Positions 5,545 to 32,035 of a DNA stretch of 33,216 bases are shown in pieces. The position numbers were made by a program, and so were the translations under genes. Location: positions 1 through 33,216 of the forward strand of contig PHAW01000025.1 in NCBI GenBank assembly GCA_002841785.1, given 5' to 3'. Origin of the DNA: Deltaproteobacteria bacterium HGW-Deltaproteobacteria-3 (lineage in GTDB: Bacteria; Desulfobacterota; Desulfobulbia; Desulfobulbales; Desulfurivibrionaceae). The notes beneath the pieces were generated by a model that saw nothing but the letters and a program-made list of their open reading frames with translations, was not told the origin of the DNA and ran no database searches. Each line of letters opens with the position of its first letter. Position 1 is the stretch's first letter.

Positions 5545-6570
5545 TTACTTGCCGAAGCCGCAAACCGGATAGGCGCAGGTCTTGCACTGCCGGCACAGTC
5601 CGCCATGCCCCAACAGGGCCATGTCATGCCGGGTGATCTTCTCGCCGCACAGCACCCTGGGCAGGATCAGATCAAACACTGTTATCTTGTGGAACATGCC
5701 GCAGGCAGGCAGCCCCAGCACCGGCACCGCCCCGATATACCCCACCAGAAACATGGCCCCGGGCAAAACCGGGGTACCGTAGACGATCTCCTCGGCACCC
5801 GCTCTGGCAATGCCCTGCCGGGTCACGTCATCCGGGTCCACGGACATGCCGCCGCTGGTGACGATGAGATCCGCCCCCGCATCCAGACACGTCTTGATCT
5901 CCGCACCAATGGTCTCGATATCGTCCGGGGCGAAGCGGACCGCAACCACCTCCGAGCCGAGTTTTTCCAGTTTCTTGCGCAGGACCGGTTCAAAGGCATC
6001 CTTGATCCGGCCATGGAACACCTCGTTGCCGGTGATGATCAGCCCGGCCTTGGCCTTTTTCAGTTGGGCAACCTTGAGGATTCCCCCGGCTTTTTGGGCG
6101 ATATCAACAGCAGCATTCACTATCCCTCGCTTGGAAACCAGGGGGATGAGCCTGGTTCCGGCGAGCTGTTCGCCCTTCTTGACCGGGGTATTGCTGTGCA
6201 GGGTGGCGCACATGACCTCTCCCAGCAGGTTGAATTGGTACAGGGACTCAATATCAACCTTGAGCAGTCCGTCGTGGGCCGCGACGATGTTGAGCTTGCC
6301 TTCCACCGGCTCGCCGGACACAGAGGTGCCTGAGCCCGCCAGGGCCTTGGCCATCAGTTCGGCCGCCTCGTTTTCATGGATGTCGTCGGGCCCCAGCTCC
6401 AGCACATAGATATTGTCCTTGCCGAGCCGCTGCAACCGCTCGACATCCTCCGCTTGAATGATGTGGCCTTTGCGAAAGGCGCACCCCTTGAATTCTTCGC
6501 TGCGGATTTCGGTGATGTCGTGGGGCAGGACCATGCCGACGGCCTGCTCAACCGGGATTGTTTTTGTCAT
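5545..6570 (-). CDS. Molybdopterin-binding protein (MoeA-like MoCF domain) with C-terminal cysteine cluster
   Basis: A 341-residue protein with the molybdopterin-binding fold of MoeA/MogA/MoaB proteins in its C-terminal half: the strand GLIITGNEVFHG, the signature DLIVTSGGMSVDPDDVT, and GTPVLPGAMFLVGYIGAVPVLGLP split over the following stretch. The N-terminal half is MoeA-like in position but divergent. The extreme C-terminus carries four cysteines, in CRQCKTCAYPVCGFG, suggesting a metal site not present in standard MoeA. The ATG at 6570 is preferred over upstream codons because homology begins at MTKTIPVEQAVGMVLPHD. It follows the FmdE gene by 26 bases on the same strand, so a joint role in molybdenum or tungsten cofactor handling is likely. 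The exact reaction is unknown. Confidence 0.82.
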   Translation of the reverse strand: MTKTIPVEQAVGMVLPHDITEIRSEEFKGCAFRKGHIIQAEDVERLQRLGKDNIYVLELGPDDIHENEAAELMAKALAGSGTSVSGEPVEGKLNIVAAHDGLLKVDIESLYQFNLLGEVMCATLHSNTPVKKGEQLAGTRLIPLVSKRGIVNAAVDIAQKAGGILKVAQLKKAKAGLIITGNEVFHGRIKDAFEPVLRKKLEKLGSEVVAVRFAPDDIETIGAEIKTCLDAGADLIVTSGGMSVDPDDVTRQGIARAGAEEIVYGTPVLPGAMFLVGYIGAVPVLGLPACGMFHKITVFDLILPRVLCGEKITRHDMALLGHGGLCRQCKTCAYPVCGFGK

Positions 6571-6596
6571 GCAGTGCTCCAATTGCCCAAGCAGGC

Positions 6597-7175
6597 TTAG
6601 ATGATTTCGTAATAACGGCCATGTGCACAAGGCTTGCAGAGTGGTTTACCCTCCTGCATTACCTCGCGGCAATCCTGCACCCAGTCCCCGCAACGCTCGC
6701 ATTGCACTCTGCGCTTGGGCCGGCCGGGCATGTCCTCTTCCGGCACGGAGATTCTGACCGGTTGCACCTTGAAAAGCTCATCCTCGGGCATGATCCGGTA
6801 GGCCTCCAACTGCTGCTTGTACTTGTCGCCGATTTCCGGGCAGTACTTTTTCGAGGTCTCCCGCGATTCCTCAAGGGCCGTAATCCGCACCGCCTTGCCG
6901 GTTTTAAGATTGACAAAGGTCGCGGCCATGATCCCGTAATCGAGCCATTTCAGGGAGCGTTTGCCCAGGGAACAGCCGGTGACGGTCTGGATGGCGTCGG
7001 TGGCGCAGCGGTCGATCTCCACCAGCACATAGAAATCCTTGCGCTGCCCCTTGGGATCGTCGATCCCGATCTCCCGCAGGCCGATCATGGACATGCGCAC
7101 CCCAATGACCTGGCCCGCGCAGATGTGGCCATGTATTTTTGTCGATTTTTCAAGAAGTTGTTCGAATGTTTCCAT
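6597..7175 (-). CDS. FmdE-family protein with C-terminal zinc ribbon
   Basis: A 192-residue member of the FmdE family, named after the E subunit encoded with methanogen formylmethanofuran dehydrogenase and found in many sulfate reducers beside molybdenum or tungsten enzymes. The N-terminal domain shows the family hallmarks KIHGHICAGQVIGVRM and the cysteine segment EIDRCATDAIQTVTGCSLGK. The C-terminus has a TraR/DksA-like zinc ribbon, CERCGDWV, with a second pair in CKPCAHG. The start at 7175 has CGGAG at about 10 bases. It is the first gene of a two-gene operon with the MoeA-like protein. There is no methanogenesis here, so the role is probably cofactor-related and unproven. Confidence 0.88.
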   Translation of the reverse strand: METFEQLLEKSTKIHGHICAGQVIGVRMSMIGLREIGIDDPKGQRKDFYVLVEIDRCATDAIQTVTGCSLGKRSLKWLDYGIMAATFVNLKTGKAVRITALEESRETSKKYCPEIGDKYKQQLEAYRIMPEDELFKVQPVRISVPEEDMPGRPKRRVQCERCGDWVQDCREVMQEGKPLCKPCAHGRYYEII

Positions 7176-9101: not shown

Positions 9102-9306
9102 GACGCCCCCCATTTGTTTGGAATTTTACGTTAGGTGTTTATACCTATATTATTTCTGTTCTTCGTTTATCTCATGGCAGATGCGATTTTGCAATGAGAT
9201 TGACTGCGTTTGCATTGAAAAAGTAGCGGGTGGAAAAACCGAGGAGCTAATGCTGTTAAAGAAGATGGAAGAATGCTGGCAAAGTTTCGCAAAATATGCT
9301 AGAGAA

Positions 9307-9470
9307 CGGTTTCCAAGGTGCTCCATAAGGAGCTTAAACGGGAACCCCGTGCAAATCGGGGACGGGCCCGCCGCTGTAACCGGGGACGCGTTTCGCAAGC
9401 ACGCCACTGTTTTTTTAAATGGGAAGGCGCGAAACAAGGATGAACCGGAAGTCAGAAGACCTGCCTTGAA
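9307..9470 (+). ncRNA. Cobalamin riboswitch 1 (upstream of the Gate-domain membrane protein)
   Basis: An AdoCbl/B12-type riboswitch aptamer. It starts near AAGGTGCT and has the core CGGGAACCCCGTGCAAATC, the conserved CCCGCCGCTGTAACCGGGG segment around 9370, and the B12-box end GAAGTCAGAAGACCTGCC (closing at 9465). A TATGCT hexamer at 9295-9300 is a possible -10 but lacks a good -35. It is followed by two small repeats and a strong terminator (9539-9575), so control by premature termination when B12 is bound is the likely mode. Confidence 0.93.
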
Positions 9471-9472
9471 AA

Positions 9473-9525
9473 ATCATGTTGCATGATCGCCGTGGACAAG
9501 TGATCATGTAATGATCTGCCGTGGA
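9473..9525 (+). repeat. Tandem hairpin-plus-GCCGTGGA repeats in the riboswitch 1 expression platform
   Basis: Two near-direct repeats, 9473-9496 and 9503-9525, each have a small palindrome (ATCATG...CATGAT in the first; ATCATGTAATGAT in the second) followed by GCCGTGGA. They lie between the aptamer and the terminator and may take part in antiterminator formation. Confidence 0.5.
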
Positions 9526-9538
9526 TGAAACAGGGTCT

Positions 9539-9575
9539 CCCCGGATCGAGAAAATCGGTCCGGGGATTTTTTTTT
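9539..9575 (+). terminator. Riboswitch 1 terminator, overlapping the start of the Gate gene
   Basis: An 11-bp stem (one G-T pair), CCCCGGATCGA pairing with TCGGTCCGGGG across a GAAAA loop, followed directly by nine T. The next three bases are the ATG of the membrane protein gene. The GGGGA of the stem is also the only Shine-Dalgarno candidate for that ATG, so the hairpin could block both transcription and translation. Confidence 0.85.
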
Positions 9576-10550
9576 ATGCCGCTGGAACTGCATTTTATCA
9601 CCTCCCTCTGGGCACATTTGCTCTGGCCGTTGGCCAAGATCCTCTTCTGGATGTCCGTGGGATTGATCGCCGCCAATTTCATCGAGGCCCTCAACTGGAC
9701 GCATCGGTTGGCCTCCCTGTCCCGCCCCTTGGTTCGCCTGGGCAGACTTTCCCCCACCTCCGGGGCGAGCTTTTCCATGGCCTTCTTCTCCGGGGTTACC
9801 GCGAATACCATGCTGGCCGAGGCCTACGACAAAGGGCAGTTGAGCAAGCGAGAGTTGGTGCTTGCCAATCTCTTCAACGGATTGCCCCGTTTTTTTCTCC
9901 ATCTGCCCACGGTCTTTTTCCTCACCGCGCCGCTCATTAAAATGGCGGCCTTGCTGTACCTGGCGCTGACTTTTAGCGCGGCAGTGCTGCAAACCGTGTT
10001 GGTGGTGATCGGCGGCAGGTTGCTGCTCTCTCCACTCCAGGAGGTACAGACGGAGATCGCGGGCTTGGTCCGGGAAAAAACCGACTGGCGACAGGCCCTG
10101 GATAAAAGCATCAAAAGGTTTCGCAAAAGGATCAAGGGGCTCCTCTATTTCACCGTGCCCGTGTACATCCTGTTCTACTTCCTGAGCAAACATGGGGTGT
10201 TTGTCTGGCTGGAGAATTTTTTTGCCACCAAGGCCTGGTTTCTTGCCTGGCTCCAGCCGCAAAGCCTCGGCATTGTCATGGCCCATGTCACCGTGGAATT
10301 TTCCGCCGGTCTGGCTGCGGCCGGAGCCCTGCTGGCGGATAATAGCCTCAGTTATAAAGAGGTGGTTCTCGCTCTCTTGGCCGGCAATATTCTTTCCACC
10401 CCGATCCGGGCGGTGCGGCACCAATTCCCCTACTATGTGGGGATCTTTTCCCCGCGACTAGCCCTTGAGCTTGTGGGGGTCAGTCAGGTATTGCGCATGG
10501 GGTCCGTGGTTGCCGTTGGCCTGGTCTATTATTTTATGACCCTTGGTTAG
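9576..10550 (+). CDS. Gate-domain (nucleoside-recognition type) membrane protein under B12 control
   Basis: A polytopic inner-membrane protein of 324 residues made of two related halves, each with Gate-domain-like features. The first contains SGASFSMAFFSGVTANTMLA and LANLFNGLPRFFLHLP; the second contains LLAGNILSTPIRAVRHQFP and GIFSPRLALELVG. About eight hydrophobic segments are visible, with a charged cytoplasmic loop between the halves (about residues 160-190). Its own cobalamin riboswitch and its place just before the cobalamin operon suggest a role in corrinoid, precursor or cobalt transport, but that is inference; the substrate is unknown. I chose the ATG at 9576, since the membrane-protein sequence begins there; the frame is also open from an ATG at 9525, before the terminator hairpin. 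Confidence 0.8.
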   Translation: MPLELHFITSLWAHLLWPLAKILFWMSVGLIAANFIEALNWTHRLASLSRPLVRLGRLSPTSGASFSMAFFSGVTANTMLAEAYDKGQLSKRELVLANLFNGLPRFFLHLPTVFFLTAPLIKMAALLYLALTFSAAVLQTVLVVIGGRLLLSPLQEVQTEIAGLVREKTDWRQALDKSIKRFRKRIKGLLYFTVPVYILFYFLSKHGVFVWLENFFATKAWFLAWLQPQSLGIVMAHVTVEFSAGLAAAGALLADNSLSYKEVVLALLAGNILSTPIRAVRHQFPYYVGIFSPRLALELVGVSQVLRMGSVVAVGLVYYFMTLG

Positions 10551-10888: not shown

Positions 10889-10927
10889 GAAGGGAACTCG
10901 TCAACCTTTTAAAAGATGGAGAAGAAG

Positions 10928-11847
10928 ATGCGTTTGAAAAAAATGTCACACAATGCTGTTTGGTTGCTGGTCGCCCTGTTTCTGGCGCTTGGCGCTATGG
11001 CCATGAAAGTGCTTTGCCCGGCATCCTCAACATCCGGGATCAGGTTCAGGCATCCCTGCCCGGCGTTCCGGTGCGATTGGCCTTCACCTCGAACATCATC
11101 CGGAGGATCTGGCAGGAGCGGCGTAAGGACCCGGCCTATGCGGTGCAGCACCCCGAGGTGCCCACGGAGATCATCAATGTCAAGGGGCCCCTGGCCGCCA
11201 TCGCCGACCTGCAGGACGAGGGCTATGGTTACATCGTTGTCCAGCCGACCCATATCTCCAGCGGGGAGGAGTTTGCCGATCTGGCCTCCTATGTGCAGGG
11301 ATTAAACGCCATTAAGACCGTGAAGAAGCGGAACATGCCGTTCAGGAAGATCCTGATCGGACGGCCTGCCCTGGGAACCCACGGCATCGAGCACGAATAC
11401 CGGCACGATATCGAGCAGGTGGCAGCCGTTTTGGCTCCGGACGTGGAGATGGCCAAAAAGGCCGGGCGGGCGCTGGTCTATTTTGCCCATGGCAATGAGC
11501 ATTATTCCACCGGGGTTTATCTGGAGTTCGAACAGGTGATGCGCAAGCGGTATCCCGGGGTGCGCATCTATGTTACCATGGTCGAGGGCTTTCCGGATAA
11601 CGCCCGTCTTTTCGAGGAACTGGCCGCGGACAAGACCAGGAAGGTGCTGCTCAAGCCCTTCATGACCGTGGCCGGAGATCATGCCAAGAACGACATGGCC
11701 GGACCTGAGCCGGATTCCCTGAAAAGTCAGCTTGAGACACGAGGTGTCAACGTGGCGGCCTCCCTTGTCGGCCTGGGAGAATCCGATGCCTTTGCGGCGA
11801 TCTTTGCCAGGCACATCAAGGATGTCATGAGCGATGAAGGTCTTTAG
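10928..11847 (+). CDS. cbiK: Sirohydrochlorin cobaltochelatase CbiK (exported type), N-terminal reading frame disrupted
   Basis: CbiK inserts cobalt into sirohydrochlorin, the first committed step of the anaerobic cobalamin route. The ATG at 10928 (GGAGAAG upstream) opens a clear signal peptide, KKMSHNAVWLLVALFLALG, as in the periplasmic CbiK of sulfate reducers. The chelatase domain lies in a different frame, open from a TTG at 10960 to the stop at 11847: LNIRDQVQASLPGVPVRLA, then the His segments YFAHGNEHYSTG and FMTVAGDHAKNDMAG, which hold the two metal-site histidines. The first strand with its usual FGTS motif is missing, so about 12-20 residues appear deleted together with a frame change near 11000-11015. 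As read, signal peptide and enzyme are not joined. It is either damaged or mis-assembled. Confidence 0.8.
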
Positions 11848-22716: not shown

Positions 22717-23514
22717 TTACACAACCTGAGAGTATTTCTGCGGAATCGGCGTAACGCGGGGCATTTGCCCCAGGGAATTTTTCTCGACCAGCATGGCGCA
22801 GCCATAACAGGCGCTCAGGCGCTCGGCAGTGAGCACCTCGTCCGGTGAACCCACCATTTCCGTCTTGCCTTGATTCAGAAGCAGCAACCGGTCGCCATAG
22901 AGGGATGCCAGATTGAGGTCGTGGGACACCATGATGACCGTGGTGCCTTTTTCAACCCGGAATCGTTCCATGAGATCCATGATCTGGATCTGGTGGGCCG
23001 GGTCCAGGGAGGCGGTGGGCTCATCGAGCAGGATGATCTCCGGCTGCTGGCAGAGCGCCCGGGCAATGATCACCCGCTGCCTCTCGCCGCCGCTCAACTG
23101 ATCAAGAGGGCGGTCGGCAAGATGGGCCACATCGGTAAAATGCATGGCCTCCCGGGCCAAGGCGTGGTCAGCTCCCCCCTCAATTCCCATAAGGCCAAGA
23201 TGCGGAGCTCGCCCCATGAGCACGGTTTCCGCCACGGAAAAGGGGAAGTCCAGGGAAATCTGTTGGGGCACCACGGCAAGCTTGCGCGCCAATTGCCGCC
23301 TGGTATAGCTGGTCAATGCTTTGCCGAGAATCTCTATTCTCCCGTGGGCAACGGGGAGAAGGTTGGCCAGCCCCTTGAGCAGACTGGTTTTGCCGCTGCC
23401 GTTTGGCCCGATGATGAGATAGAACTCCCCGCGGTGCACCTGCATGGAAATATCCTGCAGCACCTGCCGCTTGCCGTAATAGAGCGTGAGCCCCGTGACA
23501 GAGATCACTGGCAT
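22717..23514 (-). CDS. btuD: BtuD-type ABC transporter ATP-binding protein (copy 2, uptake operon)
   Basis: The ATPase of the uptake-operon importer, 265 residues. It has Walker A GPNGSGKTSLL, VVPQQISLDFPF with the Q-loop, the signature LSGGERQRVIIARALCQQ, Walker B IILLDEPTASLD and the switch His in MVSHDLNLASL. Its ATG at 23514 (GGAG about ten bases upstream) overlaps the end of the permease gene by ten bases if the permease's proper frame is followed. Because of the permease lesion, the ATPase frame is continuous with the first part of the permease, so automatic annotation may report one fused protein of about 578 residues. It is the last intact gene of the uptake operon. Confidence 0.92.
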   Translation of the reverse strand: MPVISVTGLTLYYGKRQVLQDISMQVHRGEFYLIIGPNGSGKTSLLKGLANLLPVAHGRIEILGKALTSYTRRQLARKLAVVPQQISLDFPFSVAETVLMGRAPHLGLMGIEGGADHALAREAMHFTDVAHLADRPLDQLSGGERQRVIIARALCQQPEIILLDEPTASLDPAHQIQIMDLMERFRVEKGTTVIMVSHDLNLASLYGDRLLLLNQGKTEMVGSPDEVLTAERLSACYGCAMLVEKNSLGQMPRVTPIPQKYSQVV

Positions 23515-24453
23515 CGGCGCGATCTCCACAGCAAGACGATGAAAAGCGGAGCCCCGATGAGGGCCGTGACAATACCCACCGGCATCTCGCCAGAAGTAGG
23601 CAGGGTGCGGGCCAGGAGATCGCAGAGGATCAGGTAGGAAGCGCCGCCCAGGATGCAGGCCGGCACGAGCAGCCGGTGGTCCGGCCCCAGCAGCCAGGCT
23701 CACCATGCAGGTGGTGACCAGCAACAGCAGCATGGTCAGCCGCCGCACGTCGATCCCCAGGCTGGCCGCGGATTCCCTCCCGGCCAGGAGCAGATTCAAG
23801 GGTTTCGCCAGCGCGAAAACAACGGCAAAACAGGGCAATAACGCCAGCAGCACCGGCAACCGGTCGAGGCCGGACATGGAAAGGTCGCCCATGAGCCAGA
23901 AGAGGATCTGGTGGACCTCCGAGGTTTGGGTAATGGAAATGAGAAACATGATGATCGCCCCGCAGAAGGCATTCATCATCACCCCGCCCAGGAGGAGGGA
24001 ATCCCTGCCCATGGAGGTGTTGCCCGAGATCAGGCCGACCACCAGGAGAAGAATCAAGAGGCTGCCCGCAAAGGCGGCCAGGGCCATGCCGGGAAAGGGG
24101 GAAAACCCAAGGAGCATGCCGCCTATTGCCCCAACCGCCGAGCCGCCCGAGATCCCGAGGATGTACGGCTCGGCAAGCGGATTGCGGAGCAGGGCCTGAA
24201 ACACCAGCCCGCCCAGGGAAAGGGTGGAGCCAACCGCCGCGGCCAGGATAACCCGGGGCAACCGGATCTTCCAGACAATAACGCTGAAGACCGATTGCGG
24301 GTCGGAGCTGCCGAAAACCGCGGCCAGCAGCTCGGGAATCCCGTTGCCGGATGGGCCGATTCCCATGCCGAGCAAGAAGCTTATTGCCAGCAGCCCGGCA
24401 AGCGCGATGGTCACCAGGGTGAGGCGAACGCCCAGACGAAGGTTATTGAGCAT
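23505..24453 (-). pseudogene. btuC: BtuC/FecCD-type ABC permease (copy 2), internal deletion and frame change
   Basis: The membrane subunit of the second corrinoid importer. From the ATG at 24453 the sequence is normal: KIRLPRVILAAAVGSTLSLG, LLRNPLAEPYILGISGGSA, SLLLGGVMMNAFCGA and SLGIDVRRLTMLLLL. At about 23684-23696 the expected IGFVGLIVPHLLR-like segment is absent and the frame changes. The true C-terminus continues in another frame (DHRLLVPACILGGASYLILC, LLARTLPTSGEMPVGIVTAL) to a stop at 23505-23507. About 20 residues are missing. As read, the first frame instead runs through unrelated sequence into btuD. Unless it is an assembly error, this importer lacks a functional channel subunit. 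Confidence 0.8.
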
Positions 24454-25348
24454 GCGCGGCTCCGAACAACTCGGGATGGAGGATGCGAAGCAGCGCCTCC
24501 ATCCCGTTAATGAGGCGCGGAGTCGGCCGGTCGAAGAGGTTGTCGTCCACCACATGCACCCGGCCTGAACGCACTGCGGAAAGCTGCGGCCACTGCTGCC
24601 ATTGCGCCTTCAGTTGCTCCGGTTTCTGTTTGCCGCCCATGGCGGTGACCACCACCACCTCCGGATCAAGGGACAGTATCTTTTCCCAACTCAAGCGCGG
24701 ATAGTCAACCGGCCCGGCCCCCAGATTGACGCCGCCGGCAATGGTGATCAATTCGTGGATAAAGGTTCTGGTGCCGGCGGTGACGATGGGAGGTGAGTAG
24801 AGCTGGAAAAAGACCCGTGGCCGGGAGTGGGTTGCAGCCACCTGTTGTCGCACCTTCGCAATGCGGCCGGACATCTCGGCAACAATCGCCTCGGCCCTTG
24901 CCTGCGCGCCGAGCACCCCGCCCACCCCCTGGATGGCTTCCATGATTCCCTTGATATCGCGCGGGTCGATGACGTACACCGGAATCCCGGCAGCTTCGAT
25001 TTTTTCCACCTGATGCTTGGGATTGCCGTCCCGGATACCGAGGCAGAGGTCAGGCTTGAGGGCCACGATCCGTTCAAGGTCCAGCCGCACATAGGAACCG
25101 ACCCTGGGGAGACTCTTGGCCTCGGCCGGGTAGTCGCTGAACTGGGTGGCCCCCACCAGCCTGGCACCCTGGCCCAGATCAAAGACGATCTCGGCCAGGC
25201 TGGGAGCGAGGGCAACGATGCGCTTGGGCGCATGGGGGATCGATACCGTCCGGCCGGCCTGGTCCACCACGGTGGCAGCGGAAATCAGCCCCGGAAAAAG
25301 CAGGGCAACAAGGAGGATGAGGGGGAAAACAGTGTTTTTTTGTCTCAC
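24443..25348 (-). CDS. btuF: BtuF-type periplasmic corrinoid-binding protein (copy 2)
   Basis: A periplasmic binding protein of 301 residues for the second importer. I place the start at the GTG 25348, preceded by GGGAGG and overlapping the cbiA stop as GTGA; the frame is also open to an upstream GTG at 25375. The signal peptide is VFPLILLVALLFPGLISAA. The mature part shows TVSIPHAPKRIVALAPSLAE, FDLGQGARLVGATQFSDYP, LERIVALKPDLCLGIRDGNP and VHVVDDNLFDRPTPRLING, typical of BtuF. The end overlaps the permease start by 11 bases. It is only distantly similar to copy 1 and to the binding-protein part of the CbiZ fusion, so the window holds three different BtuF-like domains. Confidence 0.92.
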   Translation of the reverse strand: MRQKNTVFPLILLVALLFPGLISAATVVDQAGRTVSIPHAPKRIVALAPSLAEIVFDLGQGARLVGATQFSDYPAEAKSLPRVGSYVRLDLERIVALKPDLCLGIRDGNPKHQVEKIEAAGIPVYVIDPRDIKGIMEAIQGVGGVLGAQARAEAIVAEMSGRIAKVRQQVAATHSRPRVFFQLYSPPIVTAGTRTFIHELITIAGGVNLGAGPVDYPRLSWEKILSLDPEVVVVTAMGGKQKPEQLKAQWQQWPQLSAVRSGRVHVVDDNLFDRPTPRLINGMEALLRILHPELFGAAHAQ

Positions 25349-26706
25349 TGTGCCTCCCGGCCGTGCCTGCGGCACAACTCGACGAGATGGGCGGCTGCCT
25401 CGGGGGTGGAGCCCAGATGCAGATGCATGTACCCGGCCAGGGTATTGTTCAGGCAGAAGCCTTCGGACCTGCCGTCATCGAGGCGATACATCCTCTCAAC
25501 CCGGTCGGGCATGGGGTCTGTCTCCGAATAGTGAAACTCATGGCCGAAAAGGCTCGCACCTTCGGGCCACAGGGTGTTTTTCGTAACCGTTGCCGTGCAA
25601 TAGCCGAGCCGCACCAGCCGTTTGTGCATCCGGGTTTTTACCGGAAATACCCCGGCCATGGGATATTCCGTCCCCTCCGCCGTAACCAGCGCCTCACACA
25701 GATACATGAAGCCGCCGCATTCGCCATAGATCGGCAGTCCAGCCTTGGCCTTGCGGCCAATCTCCTCCCGGAGGAAACAATTGGCCGCCAAGGCCTCCGC
25801 ATGGAGCTCCGGGTAGCCGCCGCCCAGGTACAATCCGTCCAGGTCGTCGGGCAACTTCGAGTCGGTCAGGGGGCTGAACGGAATCAACTCCGCGCCGGCC
25901 GACCGCAAAATATCAAGGTTGTCCTCATAATAAAAACAGAAAGCCGCATCCCTGGCAATGCCGAGGCGAACGCACGGCGCTGTTTTGCGTATTCCTTCCG
26001 GCGCGGAAATTTCGGGCAGGACCGCACCCTTCTCCCGCAACAGCGCGAGATCGACGTGTCGGGCCATGACATCGGCGATCCTGCCGAGCCTTTCCGTGGA
26101 AAGCGGTTCGTCGTGGTCCATGTGGAGACCGAGATGACGGCCGGAAACCAGAAAATCGTCATGCCGGGGAACCCCGCCCAACACCTCGGCCCGGCAATGC
26201 TCGCGCACTGCCCGGGCAAGCAGCCGGTAATGGCTATCGCTGCCAACCCGGTTGAAGATGACTCCGGTAATGGTGAGCTGCGAGTCAAAGGACTCAAAGC
26301 CATGCACCAGGGCGGCGATGCTCTCGGCGCAGGCGGAAGCGTCCACCACCAGCACCACCGGTAGGGCAAGGGTTTTGGCCAAGGCCGCAGTGCTGGCCTC
26401 GCCGCCGTCAAAAAGCCCCATCACCCCTTCGACAATGACGAAATCCGCAGCGCAGTGTTGGGCATAGCTCTGCCGCACAAAGGCTGGGGTGCACATCCGC
26501 AGATCCAGGTTGCGCGACACCCTCCCGCTCACCAGCCGGTGCAGGGTGGGATCAATGAAATCCGGACCGCACTTGAAATACTGCACCGAGGCGCCGTCCC
26601 GCACCAGGGCCGCGCCCAGTCCCAGGCTTAGCAGGGTCTTGCCGCTGTCGCTGTAGGGGGCCGCCAGGACGATGCCGCGCCCGGTTTTTCGCAAGGGTTT
26701 TTGCAC
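25345..26706 (-). CDS. cbiA: Second cobyrinate a,c-diamide synthase-like protein (uptake operon)
   Basis: A second CbiA-family amidase, 453 residues from a GTG start at 26706 with GGGAG upstream. It has the P-loop AAPYSDSGKTLLSLGLG, YFKCGPDFIDPTLHR, SGRVSRNLDLRM, VIEGVMGLFDGGEASTAAL, and in the C-terminal amidotransferase domain LYLGGGYPELHAEALAANC, the catalytic Cys330 in GECGGFMYL and the His in GYMHLHLGSTP. All catalytic parts look intact. It is clearly diverged from the copy at 14775, so it is not a recent duplicate. Being placed between tonB and btuF in a salvage operon, it may amidate imported incomplete corrinoids or another tetrapyrrole; that is inference. Confidence 0.92.
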   Translation of the reverse strand: MQKPLRKTGRGIVLAAPYSDSGKTLLSLGLGAALVRDGASVQYFKCGPDFIDPTLHRLVSGRVSRNLDLRMCTPAFVRQSYAQHCAADFVIVEGVMGLFDGGEASTAALAKTLALPVVLVVDASACAESIAALVHGFESFDSQLTITGVIFNRVGSDSHYRLLARAVREHCRAEVLGGVPRHDDFLVSGRHLGLHMDHDEPLSTERLGRIADVMARHVDLALLREKGAVLPEISAPEGIRKTAPCVRLGIARDAAFCFYYEDNLDILRSAGAELIPFSPLTDSKLPDDLDGLYLGGGYPELHAEALAANCFLREEIGRKAKAGLPIYGECGGFMYLCEALVTAEGTEYPMAGVFPVKTRMHKRLVRLGYCTATVTKNTLWPEGASLFGHEFHYSETDPMPDRVERMYRLDDGRSEGFCLNNTLAGYMHLHLGSTPEAAAHLVELCRRHGREAQ

Positions 26707-26711
26707 TGTTT

Positions 26712-27527
26712 TCAGCTCCCGGCCCGCAGGCTGAAACGCACCGGCACCCGGACCCGCATGGCCACGGGCTGCCCGTTGCGCCGGCCGGCGGAAAACCGCC
26801 AGGAACGCACCGCCGCGAGGGCCGCGGCGTCCAAGGATTCATGGCCGCTGCTTGCGGCAACATGCAGATCATCCACCCGGCCGGCAACGGAAACCAGCGC
26901 CTCAAGCTGCACAACGCCTTCCTGGCCAAGTTTCCGGGCCAGCCGGGGGTAGGGCGGCGGCGGATTGCTCTGGTAGAGTGGGTGGGCCAGCACCTCGCCG
27001 GTTGCTAAGCCTTCGTCTGTTCCTGCGACCGGATTGGCGGTGGGAGCGGTGCTGCCCAAGCCATCCCCTGCTTGGCGAGCAGTGGCGTCCATCGATGGCT
27101 CTGGCACCATGACGAATCCAGCCTCGGACTTGGCAGGCGGGGAGGATGAAGGTGAAGAAGTGGGCTCAGGAAGAACTGTATTATTGCCGTGTATCTCATT
27201 GCCAATTGGTTCTTTTATGTATTTTGCCGCGGTCGAATTTTTTGGGCGCGTTGCACCCGGAGCAACCGGTTCTCCTTCCTGCTGCACGGTAAACACCGAA
27301 ATCACCGAAGGGGGCGCCTGCTCCATGGGCAACAGGCGCCAGCCGATCAGAGAGATAAGCACCAGGGCCCCGTGCAATAACAGTGAGAACAGCAGCGCCC
27401 GCACGGGACCTCCGTTCCAAACAGCAGAGGCAAGCCAAGCCAGAGATACCGTGGTGGGCCGGATTTCGGCCGTACTCTGCCTGTCCGATTGCCCGGCGGT
27501 ATACAGCTCCAGTGCCCTTGATTCCAT
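26712..27527 (-). CDS. tonB: TonB-family energy transducer dedicated to the corrinoid uptake operon
   Basis: Couples the inner-membrane proton motive force to the outer-membrane receptor BtuB. The 271-residue protein has a single N-terminal membrane anchor, VRALLFSLLLHGALVLISLI (about residues 44-63), a proline- and serine-rich periplasmic linker (for instance PEPTSSPSSSPP) and a C-terminal TonB domain with the usual YPRLARKLGQEGVVQLEALV and ALAAVRSWRFSAGRRNGQPV. It ends in VRVPVRFSL close to the C-terminus. The ATG at 27527 lies two bases past the stop of the BtuF-CbiZ gene; the frame is open upstream, but that part lies over the fusion gene. No exbB or exbD is in the window, so these must come from elsewhere. 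Confidence 0.9.
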   Translation of the reverse strand: MESRALELYTAGQSDRQSTAEIRPTTVSLAWLASAVWNGGPVRALLFSLLLHGALVLISLIGWRLLPMEQAPPSVISVFTVQQEGEPVAPGATRPKNSTAAKYIKEPIGNEIHGNNTVLPEPTSSPSSSPPAKSEAGFVMVPEPSMDATARQAGDGLGSTAPTANPVAGTDEGLATGEVLAHPLYQSNPPPPYPRLARKLGQEGVVQLEALVSVAGRVDDLHVAASSGHESLDAAALAAVRSWRFSAGRRNGQPVAMRVRVPVRFSLRAGS

Positions 27528-27529
27528 TT

Positions 27530-29524
27530 TCAATCCGCACTCCCTTTTTCCCTGGCGCATACCCCATTGACCAGCGACTCCAAGGCTTTTGCCGCCAACG
27601 GGGGCAACCGGCCCTCGAGGAAACGCTGGTGCCATGGCTCAACCGCATGGCCAGCCAGGCGTGCAGCCACTGCCTTGGCCCAGAGTTCATGCCCTTGCGG
27701 ATCGGCAAGCCCTGCTTGGACCGCATCGCTCATGGCCAGCGAACCTGCCATGAACCCGGCATATTCCGGCTGCATGAGCGCATCCTCCACGGCGGCAACC
27801 AACTGCCGACGATCCAGGGAGCATTCCTCGGGCTCAAGGGGAAGCAGCGAGGCAAGATGTATCCGCCGCTCCTCCAACCGGGCAAAGATGGAACGGTCGG
27901 CGGTTATTCGGTTCTGTCCGGCGATGGCCTTGCGGACTCCATCATAGACTGCGGCGGCAATGAGTTCCCCCATCTTGGTGTGTCCGCCCGCGCCGTTGAT
28001 CCCGGGTCCCTCGCCCTGCACCACCAGAAGGTTGTCGGTGCCAGTGCCTGTGGCGGCAAAATGGGGGCTGTAGGTGCTGCGGATGTCCAGGTCGGTCAAG
28101 GCCGCAGTCTTGGCCTCGGTGGCGGTGATAATCGCCCGGCTCATGGCCTGTTCGCTCAATCGGGCGTTGGTGAGCAAGACGATATTGATGGTGCCGGGCT
28201 CGTAGAAGTTGCCGCTGTCCGTGGCCATGCGCATGGCATTGGTTTTGACACCCGCAGTGACCAGGGCATACACGGTGAGGTCGCGAAACGATTTTTCAGC
28301 CACGACCAGATGGTCCATGTCCGCTCCGGTGAACAGCAGGCTGGTCTGGGCGTCTGGCCGGGCCAGGGCCGCGGTCGCCGTCCGGCGCAAGCCGTCCAAG
28401 CCGCTGGTGTGGCCAAGCCCCCAGGAAGGCGGGGGGTAATAATGATTACCCACGCCCATGATGCCCTCCCGCATCCCCTCCAGGGTGGAGAGTATGCGCT
28501 GCGGCGTGGTGAAATCCACCACCAGGGTTTTGTTGATGAAATCGCGAATCCGGCTCTTCTGCACCAGTGCCTGCCGGACATAGGAAAGGGGCAGCGCAAC
28601 CGGCCGCGCCTCGAGCATTTGGTCCGGATACGCCTGGCGCGATGGATCGGAAAACTCCTGTTCGTATACCCGTGCCGCCAGCCAGGAGACAAAGCCGCCC
28701 ATGTTGACCCCTGCCCGGCAGGTGAACTCGCAGGGGAAGGAGAATACCCTTTTGTGTTTGACGGCCTCGATTTTTTGCAGGGCCGGGTTGGCAAGCACCG
28801 CCTCGGCGGCGTCCCCGCACACATAGATGGTCTGGGGATTGAACCGGACAATTTCCGCCGGACTCACCACGATGGCCTCCCCATTTCTGCCGAAACGGGG
28901 AGGGATTCCGCCGGCGCTCCGGATAAAGTCGTTTTGAAAAGAATCATCCCCCGGCGCCATGAGCTGCGCGACTCCCATGAGCCGCATCACCCGCTGGCGC
29001 TTGGCAGCGGGGATGGGCTCCACCTTGGCCCGGATCAGCGCCAACTCTGCGCGGATACCCGCGGCCAGAGTATCCGCCTCCTGCCCCCGGCCAAGCAGAC
29101 CGCCAAGATCGTGGAGCCGTTCAAGGGCCTGCTCCACCGAATGAACCGGAGAAAGCTCCACCACGGCGCACTGGTCTTGAAAACGTTTTTTCACCGTGCC
29201 GTGCAGGCTGGAGACCAGAAGCAAATCGGGACGAAGCGCCTCGATTCTTTCAAGGGAGGGGGCAGCAAAACCACCCACGATCTCTTTTTTTCTTAGGTTC
29301 ACCGGCAGGGTATCATGGCTGGTCACCCCAACAACTGCATCGCCAGCGCCCACGGCCACCAGCATCTCGGTGGCGGCGGGCACCAGCGACACCACCCGCT
29401 GGGGAGGATGATTCACCGGAAATCTTTCCTGCGCATCCCGCAGCGGATCCGCCCAGGCCGGGGCAGTTGCCCCGGCCCAGAGCAGCATGAACACAACAAT
29501 ACTAAAAACAGGTTTCATCCGCAT
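27530..29524 (-). CDS. cbiZ: Exported BtuF-CbiZ fusion: corrinoid-binding domain plus adenosylcobinamide amidohydrolase
   Basis: A 664-residue two-domain protein with a signal peptide (PVFSIVVFMLLWAGATAPAW). Residues about 35-290 are a BtuF-type binding domain: PQRVVSLVPAATEMLVAVGA, GFAAPSLERIEALRPDLLLV, and a late KRVFSFPCEF. Residues about 315-535 are a CbiZ domain: TLVVDFTTPQRILSTLEGMR, VGNHYYPPPSWGLGHTSGL, GTINIVLLTNARLSEQAMSR, and GTGTDNLLVVQGEG with the GAGGHTKMGELIA end. CbiZ cuts the aminopropanol arm of adenosylcobinamide and pseudo-B12 to leave adenosylcobyric acid. The last 120 residues (helical, unknown) have no clear match. It follows btuB by eight bases. With the signal peptide, cleavage would take place in the periplasm during uptake. 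Confidence 0.9.
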   Translation of the reverse strand: MRMKPVFSIVVFMLLWAGATAPAWADPLRDAQERFPVNHPPQRVVSLVPAATEMLVAVGAGDAVVGVTSHDTLPVNLRKKEIVGGFAAPSLERIEALRPDLLLVSSLHGTVKKRFQDQCAVVELSPVHSVEQALERLHDLGGLLGRGQEADTLAAGIRAELALIRAKVEPIPAAKRQRVMRLMGVAQLMAPGDDSFQNDFIRSAGGIPPRFGRNGEAIVVSPAEIVRFNPQTIYVCGDAAEAVLANPALQKIEAVKHKRVFSFPCEFTCRAGVNMGGFVSWLAARVYEQEFSDPSRQAYPDQMLEARPVALPLSYVRQALVQKSRIRDFINKTLVVDFTTPQRILSTLEGMREGIMGVGNHYYPPPSWGLGHTSGLDGLRRTATAALARPDAQTSLLFTGADMDHLVVAEKSFRDLTVYALVTAGVKTNAMRMATDSGNFYEPGTINIVLLTNARLSEQAMSRAIITATEAKTAALTDLDIRSTYSPHFAATGTGTDNLLVVQGEGPGINGAGGHTKMGELIAAAVYDGVRKAIAGQNRITADRSIFARLEERRIHLASLLPLEPEECSLDRRQLVAAVEDALMQPEYAGFMAGSLAMSDAVQAGLADPQGHELWAKAVAARLAGHAVEPWHQRFLEGRLPPLAAKALESLVNGVCAREKGSAD

Positions 29525-29532
29525 ATGGCTTC

Positions 29533-31578
29533 TTAGAACTCGTAGGAAAGAGAGGCAAAGACCGAACGGCCCGCGCCAGGGTATCCCTGCCGGGTGGTGC
29601 TTCCCAGAGTCTCATCGCGGAAGTTGGCTGTGTAGGTGTCATACCCGGCATCAAAAATATTGTTGCAATTGATGGCTGCCAGCCAGTGTTCCTGGAAACG
29701 CTGACTTATGCGCAGGTCGGTGGTTATGTAAGAATCCAGGGTCTGCTGAGGGTCGATTGCTGTGTCCGAGGCGTAGGAAGCGGGACGATCGTCCACATAT
29801 CGGACCACCACACCGGTGGTAAGCCCGGAAGGCAGAAAATAGTCGATCTGTCCCTTCAACAGATTGCGCGGGGTGTATTGGGCCTGCCGCCACATTCCGA
29901 CAGCCTGCTCTTCCTCCGCATTGGTCCTGGTATAGCCTACGCTCACCCTTACTGAATCCAGGGGCTTGGCCGTCACCCCCAATTCCCAGCCGGTGGCCTC
30001 GTAGGAATTGGTGTTTGAGGGAGTATATTTGTCCCCCCACGGACCGGGGAAGGCCGGATTTTGAGCCCAGTCGATCTTGTCATCGATGTTCCACTTAAAA
30101 TAGGTTGCCGAGGCAATCAGTTTCTTTCTCAGAAAGGATTGTTCCACCGTGAGGTCGCTGTGCCAGCCGGTTTCCGGCTTAAGATCGGGGTTGCCTCGCA
30201 CATAGGCGCTTTCCGGCCAGTAGAGGTCGTTCATGGTGGGCGCCTTGAAGTGCTTGCCATGGCCGAGCTTGATGCTGGTCGTCTCCCGGGGGGTCACCAC
30301 TGCGCCGAAACGGGGCAGGGTTTCGTGGCCGAACATGGAGTGTTCCTCATAGCGCAACCCCGCGAGCAGCTTCAGGTACTGGTTCGCCTGCCACTGTGCC
30401 TCGCCGTAGCTGCCTTGGGTGAAGACGTCATGCTGCGCCTCGGAGGTGGGTCCGGCCAGCGCCACCCCATAGGTATTCAGGGTGCCGACCTCGTTGGTGT
30501 AATCGTAATTGCGGTACTGACTGCCCACCAGCAGGGTAATCCCTTCCGGCAAGCGCATTTCCGCCGTACCCTCCAACCCCAGAACCTCGTTGGTGACCCA
30601 GGTTTCCTGGCCGGCGCCGGTTGCATTGTAACGCTGATAAAAATAATTTTCCATGTTCACCGCATCGCCCCGCAGGGCAAGGGTCAGCCAGGAAAGCGGC
30701 TGGCTTTTCAACTCCAGGGCAGAGTAAAAGTTTTGGTCACTGCCCTCGTTCACCAGGCTTGCGGCATCAGCGTTGTACATCCTGGTTCCATTGACAACAT
30801 GCTCCTGGGTGGTGTCGGGCGGCTTTACCCCCGGAACCCCGTATTCCCGGTCGATCCAGGCGCCATAGAGGCTGGCGGAGAGCAGCTTGTTCTTGTCGTG
30901 GACCAGCTTGAGGGAGGCGTCGTTATGGCGGAGGTCGCTGTTGTCGCGGAAGCCGTCGGTTTCCCGGCGGGAAGCGGTGAGATAATAGCCCAGGCCGTCG
31001 GCGACATACATGCCCTGTTCCGCGGAAAGCTCGTAATTGCCTTCGCTGCCGAAGCCGCTTCCCAGCTTCAAATCCAGCGTGTCCGGTTGGGGGTTCTTGG
31101 TGAGGATATTCACCGTACCGGCCATGGCGCCGGTGCCGTACAGCAGGGAACCAGGCCCCTTGACCACCTCAACCCGGTCGATGCTGCCCATGGGCAGCAG
31201 GCCGAAGTCGGCAGTGCCCAACGAGGGAGAATTGATGTTGATGCCGTTCAAAAATACCTGGGTGGCATCGCCGCCCATGCCCCGAATGTGGATCTCTTCG
31301 GTGGCCCCGCCGTAGTCGCCCCTGGTGCGCCAGTCAAGCCCCGGCTCGTTGGCCAGCAGCTCGCCGAGACTCCTGGCCGGCGCGTTCTCGATATCCCCGG
31401 CGTCCTTCAGGACCACGGCATTGGGCACATCATGCACGTTTTCCGCCGTCTTGGTCGCCGTCACCACCACCTCATCCATGACGATCTGTTTGTTGTCGGC
31501 TGCCTCTTGCCCTGCAGTGGCGAGACCGGGAACAGTCAGCAGAACCAAGGCCCAAGCCGGGTATGGTTTTTTCTTCAT
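29533..31578 (-). CDS. btuB: BtuB-type TonB-dependent outer-membrane corrinoid receptor
   Basis: A 680-residue outer-membrane beta-barrel that takes up cobalamin or related corrinoids using TonB. The ATG at 31578 has a perfect AGGAGGGG upstream; the longer open frame is rejected. A signal peptide, PAWALVLLTVPGLATAG, is followed by a TonB box (MDEVVVTATK), a plug domain with RSLGELLANEPGLDWRTRG, EEIHIRGMGGDATQVFLNG and SIDRVEVVKGPGSLLYGTGA, and a long barrel ending in a C-terminal Phe (FASLSYEF), as needed for barrel insertion. It is the first gene of the uptake operon, behind riboswitch 3. The combination with btuF, tonB and cbiZ supports a corrinoid rather than an iron-siderophore substrate. 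Confidence 0.93.
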   Translation of the reverse strand: MKKKPYPAWALVLLTVPGLATAGQEAADNKQIVMDEVVVTATKTAENVHDVPNAVVLKDAGDIENAPARSLGELLANEPGLDWRTRGDYGGATEEIHIRGMGGDATQVFLNGININSPSLGTADFGLLPMGSIDRVEVVKGPGSLLYGTGAMAGTVNILTKNPQPDTLDLKLGSGFGSEGNYELSAEQGMYVADGLGYYLTASRRETDGFRDNSDLRHNDASLKLVHDKNKLLSASLYGAWIDREYGVPGVKPPDTTQEHVVNGTRMYNADAASLVNEGSDQNFYSALELKSQPLSWLTLALRGDAVNMENYFYQRYNATGAGQETWVTNEVLGLEGTAEMRLPEGITLLVGSQYRNYDYTNEVGTLNTYGVALAGPTSEAQHDVFTQGSYGEAQWQANQYLKLLAGLRYEEHSMFGHETLPRFGAVVTPRETTSIKLGHGKHFKAPTMNDLYWPESAYVRGNPDLKPETGWHSDLTVEQSFLRKKLIASATYFKWNIDDKIDWAQNPAFPGPWGDKYTPSNTNSYEATGWELGVTAKPLDSVRVSVGYTRTNAEEEQAVGMWRQAQYTPRNLLKGQIDYFLPSGLTTGVVVRYVDDRPASYASDTAIDPQQTLDSYITTDLRISQRFQEHWLAAINCNNIFDAGYDTYTANFRDETLGSTTRQGYPGAGRSVFASLSYEF

Positions 31579-31732
31579 TGTACCCCTCCTGAATTGCCAT
31601 TGGAAGAGCGCATGGCTCTTTGAAAACCATCCCACTCTTTGATGAGAAAAATGGTTGCCTTACTGAAACTCTGTTCGTTTAACTGCATTGTCGTCCTCCT
31701 TTTGGAGTCCGGGGGGCATCCTTGCAAAGGAC

Positions 31733-31770: not shown

Positions 31771-31840
31771 ATTTCCCGAATTATCCACTGTACCAGCAGC
31801 ACGCCTCACAGTCCACGGGAGGTATGCTATATAGTATCTC

Positions 31841-31995
31841 AAGGCAGGTCTTCTGACTTCCGGTTCGTCCTTGTTTCGCGCCTTCCCGTTCAAAAAAACA
31901 GTGGCTGTATTGCGAAACTCGTCCCCGGTTACAGCGGCGGGCCCGTCCCGGATTTACACCGGGTTCCCTATTAAGCTCTCTTCAGAGCACCTGAG
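31841..31995 (-). ncRNA. Cobalamin riboswitch 3 (upstream of btuB)
   Basis: A B12 riboswitch on the minus strand. It begins with CAGGTGCTCTGAAGAGAGCTT, whose first 20 bases fix the P1-P2 region, continues with GGGAACCCGGTG and CCCGCCGCTGTAACCGGGG, and ends in GAAGTCAGAAGACCTGCC next to 31843. It is nearly the same as riboswitch 1, including the variable arm with its T7 run. It controls btuB and probably the whole uptake operon. Confidence 0.93.
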
Positions 31996-32007
31996 ATATG
32001 AGCGTCA

Positions 32008-32035
32008 AATCTAGCGGATTCCCGATTAAAGTCAA
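32008..32035 (-). promoter_or_regulatory. Sigma-70-type promoter for riboswitch 3 and the uptake operon
   Basis: On the minus strand a TTGACT -35 (32030-32035) and a TAGATT -10 (32008-32013) are separated by 16 bases. Transcription would start near 32001, just before the aptamer, which is exactly where a riboswitch promoter is expected. Confidence 0.6.

Follow-up and report, generated by a model that had tools for sequence, protein, structure and literature searches.

Architecture and genomic context of the fusion gene

On the minus strand of the window (the entire 33,216-nucleotide stretch of DNA analysed here) a single intact open reading frame was seen at positions 27530..29524. It encodes a protein of 664 aa in which a signal peptide, a substrate-binding domain (SBP), a CbiZ domain and a helical C-terminal domain follow one another. 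The N-terminus, MRMKPVFSIVVFMLLWAGATAPAWA with D as the next residue, was recognised by inspection as a Sec-type signal peptide (residues 1-25, 29450..29524, cleavage after AWA). The second part is a class-III substrate-binding domain (approximately residues 40-300, 28625..29407), assigned from its predicted fold and from a Peripla_BP_2 match at residues 44-263 (88.2 bits, E 7e-25; Pfam cut-off 27.5). The CbiZ domain (residues 338-530, 27935..28513) matched PF01955 with 181.5 bits and an E value of 2e-53 (Pfam gathering cut-off 27). Both domains are far above the curated cut-offs, and the proposal of an earlier note on this DNA, that one chain carries a binding domain together with CbiZ, was confirmed. 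Pfam found no ABC_tran domain in the chain. The helical C-terminal domain (residues 541-664, 27533..27904) had no match to any Pfam family when this tail of about 120 residues was searched alone.

The gene is part of an operon on the same strand, in the order riboswitch, btuB-like gene, fusion gene, tonB, cobB/cbiA, btuF and btuCD. The cobalamin riboswitch (31825..32009; Rfam RF00174, 123.8 bits) stands at its head. The btuB-like gene (29533..31635) encodes a TonB-dependent receptor with a Plug domain and a TonB_dep_Rec barrel (TIGR01779 161.7 bits, under its 599.7 cut-off); it lies directly upstream of the fusion gene, and tonB (26712..27635, PF03544) lies directly downstream, in agreement with the placement between btuB and tonB described earlier. 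The listed ATG of tonB overlaps the fusion gene, and its true start is probably further downstream. Next come cobB/cbiA for cobyrinic acid a,c-diamide synthase (25345..26706; NF002204 475.8 bits, above cut-off), a separate BtuF-like binding protein that is the probable BtuCD partner (24443..25375; PF01497), and btuC and btuD in one frame (22717..24555), with BtuC cut at 234 of 311 FecCD positions. Since btuC and btuD occupy separate or overlapping frames at other loci, this single frame is likely to be a frameshift or a sequencing error.

When we examined the loci with at least 5 kb on both flanks, we observed btuB at 30 of 33, tonB at 24 of 33 and a separate btuF at 23 of 33. A cobalamin riboswitch was present at 7 of 8 other loci, and in L118 and L125 it was located directly ahead of the fusion gene.

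The plus strand of the window carries two further cobalamin riboswitches, a second btuCDF set, and the genes cbiK, cbiA, cbiD, cbiET, cbiL, cbiF and cbiG. With these corrin-ring enzymes, the organism probably synthesises corrin rings itself. CbiB, CobS and CobT are encoded elsewhere in the source genome. An adenosyltransferase was not found in this genome (85% complete); as 24 of the 27 family members searched have one, the absence is probably due to incompleteness. Also on the plus strand, a 341-aa membrane protein with no Pfam match (9525-10550) lies directly 3' of a cobalamin riboswitch (9299-9482), and is a candidate corrinoid or cobalt transporter.

The fusion recurs in sulfate-reducing Desulfobacterota

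Related fusion ORFs numbered about 120, or 101 once duplicates were removed, all with the same domain order. In a class-wide search, CbiZ was detected in 65/258 genomes, and most of the matches with open frames of 650-780 aa were the same fusion. We also carried out a species-level scan using one genome per species; among the best 80 of 511 relatives (the 511 not all necessarily being fusions), 79 were SBP-CbiZ fusions and 1 was cut by a contig end. The hosts were nearly all sulfate-reducing Desulfobacterota, and included Desulfonema magnum, Desulfosarcina widdelii, Desulfosarcina cetonica, Desulfogranum marinum, Desulforhopalus singaporensis and Desulfofustis glycolicus. Since cultured organisms show the same domain order, among them D. 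magnum and D. widdelii with complete genomes, this order is not a product of chance or misassembly, and the SBP-CbiZ fusion is confirmed as a real observation. When 61 CbiZ domains were placed in a tree, the fusions sampled formed one group in 94% of bootstrap trees (with modest branch support, 95/49), and several neighbours of this group were long branches.

Evidence for export to the periplasm

The signal peptide was evaluated across the family using a heuristic that looks for a start codon, a positive n-region and then a hydrophobic core. A signal-like N-terminus was seen in 96/96 fusions with a complete 5' end, the remaining 5 of the 101 being cut at a contig edge. The earlier note had held that the fusion is exported, had suggested looking for the same domain order with a signal peptide in protein databases, and had named homologs without the signal peptide as evidence against it; every complete fusion retrieved has one.

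The periplasmic location was further supported by three observations that go beyond signal prediction alone. Firstly, in L029, L063, L111, L113 and L134 the chain is SBP-CbiZ-Cter-SBP, which places CbiZ between two periplasmic-family domains, and in L111, L113 and L134 this chain ends directly before btuC. Secondly, the CbiZ domains of the fusions are depleted in cysteine, with 0.37 Cys per 100 aa as compared to 2.86 in non-exported long CbiZ proteins of the same class. Thirdly, L051 encodes an exported stand-alone CbiZ (5953-6813 on the plus strand, 287 aa, signal peptide MNKRVLWILIFLLIPSVVMA), which lies downstream of a btuB-like gene and is without a binding domain.

The CbiZ domain retains its conserved residues and has a DmpA/OAT-like predicted fold

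Alignments indicated that the residues common to CbiZ of other phyla (GTIN, the TEAK region and GTGTD) are kept in the CbiZ domain of the window. T469/E470/K472 and GTGTD are retained in the fusions, and 83 fusions show no variation at the positions conserved across the CbiZ proteins of other phyla. The motif GT[IV]N was present in 61/61 CbiZ rows compared, with the Gly-Thr invariant in all of them. The mean conservation was also the highest for CbiZ among the three domains (0.72, as compared to 0.61 for the SBP and 0.49 for the tail). The loss of catalytic residues, which the earlier note had regarded as grounds for abandoning its proposal, was thus not seen.

A PDB sequence search with a CbiZ profile found no homolog of solved structure. 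We used a structure model covering residues 314-664 (mean pLDDT 90.5), in which CbiZ resembled the fold of DmpA, NylC, ThnT and ornithine acetyltransferase (OAT). The best match was Nyl50 (Z 14.1, 3.6 A, 181 aligned), followed by NylC (Z 13.3), ThnT (13.0), OAT (12.2) and DmpA (11.8), with the next unrelated structure at 6.6. CbiZ is therefore predicted to share the S58/OAT superfamily fold. Enzymes of the DmpA/NylC/ThnT/OAT type self-cleave, freeing an N-terminal Ser or Thr, and the mutants named in PDB titles include N266/T267 of NylC, T282 of ThnT and S250 of BapA. The CbiZ stretch that corresponds to the S58 cleavage site is G-T-I-N-I. In the model, a very-low-confidence loop (model residues 118-128) comes before it, and a strand and then a long helix come after; S58 sequences show a comparable arrangement (EG-SIIVVVATD).

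A comparison of CbiZ with S58 using hhalign gave a weak, local match that was not significant (probability 2.9, E 0.015, 80 columns), with the nucleophile motifs in register. Outside the fusions, many CbiZ rows have no Thr at +7 of the S58 motif. The CbiZ domain is thus like peptidase family S58 and OAT in its predicted fold and in the register of the G-T/G-S motif, but differs in having no significant sequence-profile relation to them, and self-cleavage of CbiZ is a prediction. Since the profile match is weak, it is the fold and the motif register that point to Thr445 of the GTIN motif (28190..28192) as a candidate self-released N-terminal nucleophile, with self-cleavage at Gly444/Thr445.

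The binding domain has mostly lost the importer-docking glutamates

The SBP domain is predicted to fold like haem- and B12-binding proteins (2r7a, Z 26.4; BtuF 1n2z, Z 23.1, 239 aligned, 2.5 A). The fusion did not reach the NCBIfam cut-off for the BtuF equivalog (PRK03379, 54.8 vs 234 bits), and the neighbouring BtuF was also under it (146.7). F86 of the window protein occupies the place of W66 in E. coli BtuF, and Phe or Tyr is found there in 99/101 fusions; according to PDB titles, this Trp66 has been mutated in cobinamide-bound structures.

We then compared the positions of the two glutamates with which BtuF docks on BtuC in BtuCDF, E72 and E202 in the E. coli protein. Both were present in 48/52 partner BtuFs and in 5/5 C-terminal SBPs of the long fusions, as compared to 15/101 N-terminal SBPs of the fusions. 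The window fusion does not have the pair, showing Glu and Ala instead. As the fusion's own SBP has mostly lost this pair, direct delivery to BtuCD by the fusion is improbable, and contact with the importer would probably be made by a BtuF, either separate or fused at the C-terminus. The designation of the N-terminal domain as BtuF-like in the earlier note is therefore correct for the class-III fold and the Peripla_BP_2 score, but does not extend to the paired docking glutamates.

The domain also differs from BtuF in three cysteines, C236, C265 and C269, which are invariant in the approximately 101 exported fusions. Most partner BtuFs have no counterpart of C236 and C265; a counterpart of C269 occurs in 23/52. 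These residues could possibly form a disulfide, or provide a thiolate near the cobalt.

The C-terminal domain

The structure search took CbiZ and the tail jointly, and the CbiZ matches filled the list. When anchored by CbiZ, the tail aligned end to end with the tails of long CbiZ proteins lacking a signal peptide; when the tails were compared without this anchor, they did not match (probability 0.4), and the homology is only suggestive. The earlier note had proposed that this domain docks to BtuB, TonB or the importer. We consider such a role unlikely, as CbiZ proteins that are not exported have a tail that is probably homologous. A general accessory domain of CbiZ is the likelier role, because, with this anchor, the tail aligns with those of long CbiZ proteins that have no signal peptide.

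We also evaluated a PgpA-type alpha-ribazole phosphatase as a candidate identity for the tail, and this received no support (hhalign probability 0.3). CbiS (NF038002), in which CbiZ is joined to an alpha-ribazole phosphatase, is like the fusion in having a second domain after CbiZ, and 83/83 fusions match it weakly. However, the window fusion scores 71.9 bits, under the cut-off of 250, and its tail has no detectable relation to PgpA-type sequences.

A proposed route for periplasmic trimming of corrinoids

We propose that the fusion is an exported corrinoid amidohydrolase that trims corrinoids in the periplasm, with import of the product through BtuF-BtuCD and rebuilding inside the cell; we hold this to be the probable explanation, with confidence somewhat above even. 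A corrinoid would enter via BtuB, and the N-terminal binding domain would capture it in the periplasm. There, hydrolysis by CbiZ of the amide bond to the aminopropanol arm would yield cobyric acid, which would pass to the BtuF encoded downstream (or, in some species, on the same chain) and be imported by BtuCD. Inside the cell, CbiB, CobS and CobT would rebuild the organism's own cobamide; their presence in the genome means that imported cobyric acid could be rebuilt in this way. The riboswitch would make the operon respond to cobalamin.

Several points count against this explanation, among them the weak profile match of CbiZ to S58 and the adenosyltransferase that was not found in this genome. 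The CbiZ enzymes studied so far work on adenosylated corrinoids. ATP for adenosylation is not available in the periplasm, and periplasmic corrinoids are likely to be non-adenosylated. Further, with the enzymes of de novo synthesis encoded in this region, remodelling would not be needed for auxotrophy.

A more detailed version of the same proposal is that sulfate reducers remodel cobamides outside the cytoplasm using a secreted, self-cleaving Thr amidase of the DmpA/OAT fold, which is carried on a corrinoid-binding domain with a conserved site of three cysteines and removes lower arms in the periplasm, with BtuF-BtuCD importing the cobyric acid. We advance this version tentatively, as one that may well not hold in full. 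If it is true, the first remodelling step precedes import and CbiZ joins a known catalytic superfamily.

The periplasmic step could instead be restricted to salvage, such that only incomplete corrinoids (cobinamide) are cut and complete cobamides go on to BtuF intact. The substrate first associated with CbiZ is cobinamide, and the operon evidence is identical for this and for the main explanation. Selectivity would also be expected, since the R. sphaeroides enzyme cuts pseudocobalamin and not cobalamin (PMC7733943). However, in the 61-domain tree the nearest non-fused relative is the CbiZ of D. mccartyi (its branches being long and its placement uncertain), and many cobamides can serve for remodelling in D. 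mccartyi (PMC7733943). On balance, we judge restriction to cobinamide to be unlikely.

It is also conceivable that the CbiZ domain merely binds or shields periplasmic corrinoids, as two corrinoid-related domains are fused here and catalysis is a prediction. If the role were binding alone, a relaxed active site would be expected, but the cross-phylum CbiZ residues are invariant in the 83 fusions and CbiZ is the best conserved of the domains, which makes a non-catalytic relay quite improbable.

A third alternative is that the fusion replaces BtuF, with its own SBP docking on BtuCD and CbiZ trimming the corrinoid at the importer. Although the Peripla_BP_2 domain is of the haem/B12 class and btuCD is in the operon, the docking pair is rare in the fusions as compared to the partner BtuFs, and a separate BtuF is encoded in the window operon and at most of the long-flank loci. 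In the chains that include a fused BtuF, this BtuF forms a second, C-terminal SBP, which has both glutamates. Replacement of BtuF is thus very improbable.

That the signal peptide is misleading and CbiZ is cytosolic as elsewhere, a reading suggested by the characterised enzymes and by the fusion of CbiZ to the cytosolic ATPase BtuD in Cytobacillus (L149), can practically be set aside, given the signal peptide in all the complete fusions, the one or two periplasmic-family domains attached, the cysteine depletion and the exported solo CbiZ.

Comparison with known CbiZ systems

CbiZ has an established place in cobamide remodelling, which has been studied as a cytosolic process, and to our knowledge the characterised CbiZ enzymes have all been treated as cytosolic. 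The CbiZ proteins of M. mazei, R. sphaeroides and D. mccartyi (adenosylcobinamide amidohydrolase, PF01955) share with the fusion the same invariant residues and a gene adjoining those for corrinoid uptake; in contrast to these, the fusion is exported, lies behind a binding domain and has a helical tail. The BtuD-CbiZ fusion of Bacillota resembles it in that CbiZ is physically tied to a corrinoid importer. The two are mirror images, as CbiZ is on the cytosolic ATPase in BtuD-CbiZ, whereas in the exported fusion it is on the periplasmic side with the binding domain. A coupling of CbiZ to corrinoid uptake has already been suggested (PMC7733943). In the literature searched we found no description of an exported CbiZ or of an SBP-CbiZ fusion, and an earlier mention in two key papers on R. 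sphaeroides CbiZ is possible.

The occurrence of secreted SBP-CbiZ in many sulfate reducers suggests that foreign forms of B12 are trimmed between the membranes before import, and not inside the cell. If the first cut is indeed periplasmic, the cell could accept any corrinoid that BtuB admits and keep unusable lower ligands out. The removed arms could be released to neighbours, which is relevant to how anaerobic communities share cobamides. For CbiZ itself, the predicted fold suggests a catalytic mechanism that can be tested, with Thr445 as the candidate nucleophile.

Chelatase genes near the fusion

The cbiK cobaltochelatase gene of the window (10916-11847, plus strand) was also examined. A signal-peptide-like stretch, MRLKKMSHNAVWLLVALFLALGAMA, opens the frame from 10916, and the CbiK body follows after a shift of frame; this break may be an assembly error. 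An intact CbiK with a signal peptide, adjoining btuCDF, was seen in L102 (13252-14271). The presence of an exported CbiK beside an exported CbiZ suggests additional periplasmic corrin chemistry. In L116 (9896-14814), the fusion and btuF are separated by genes for a CobN/Mg-chelatase-like protein (about 1350 aa) and for a CbiK-like protein. L085 (4488-9211) has CbiK and a 1319-aa ORF at the corresponding positions, the latter similar in size to the L116 protein, and ORFs of similar size were also present in L112, L123 and L135. The arrangement in L116 and L085 resembles the CbiZ-transporter-CobN operon of Dehalobacter (PMC4285132).
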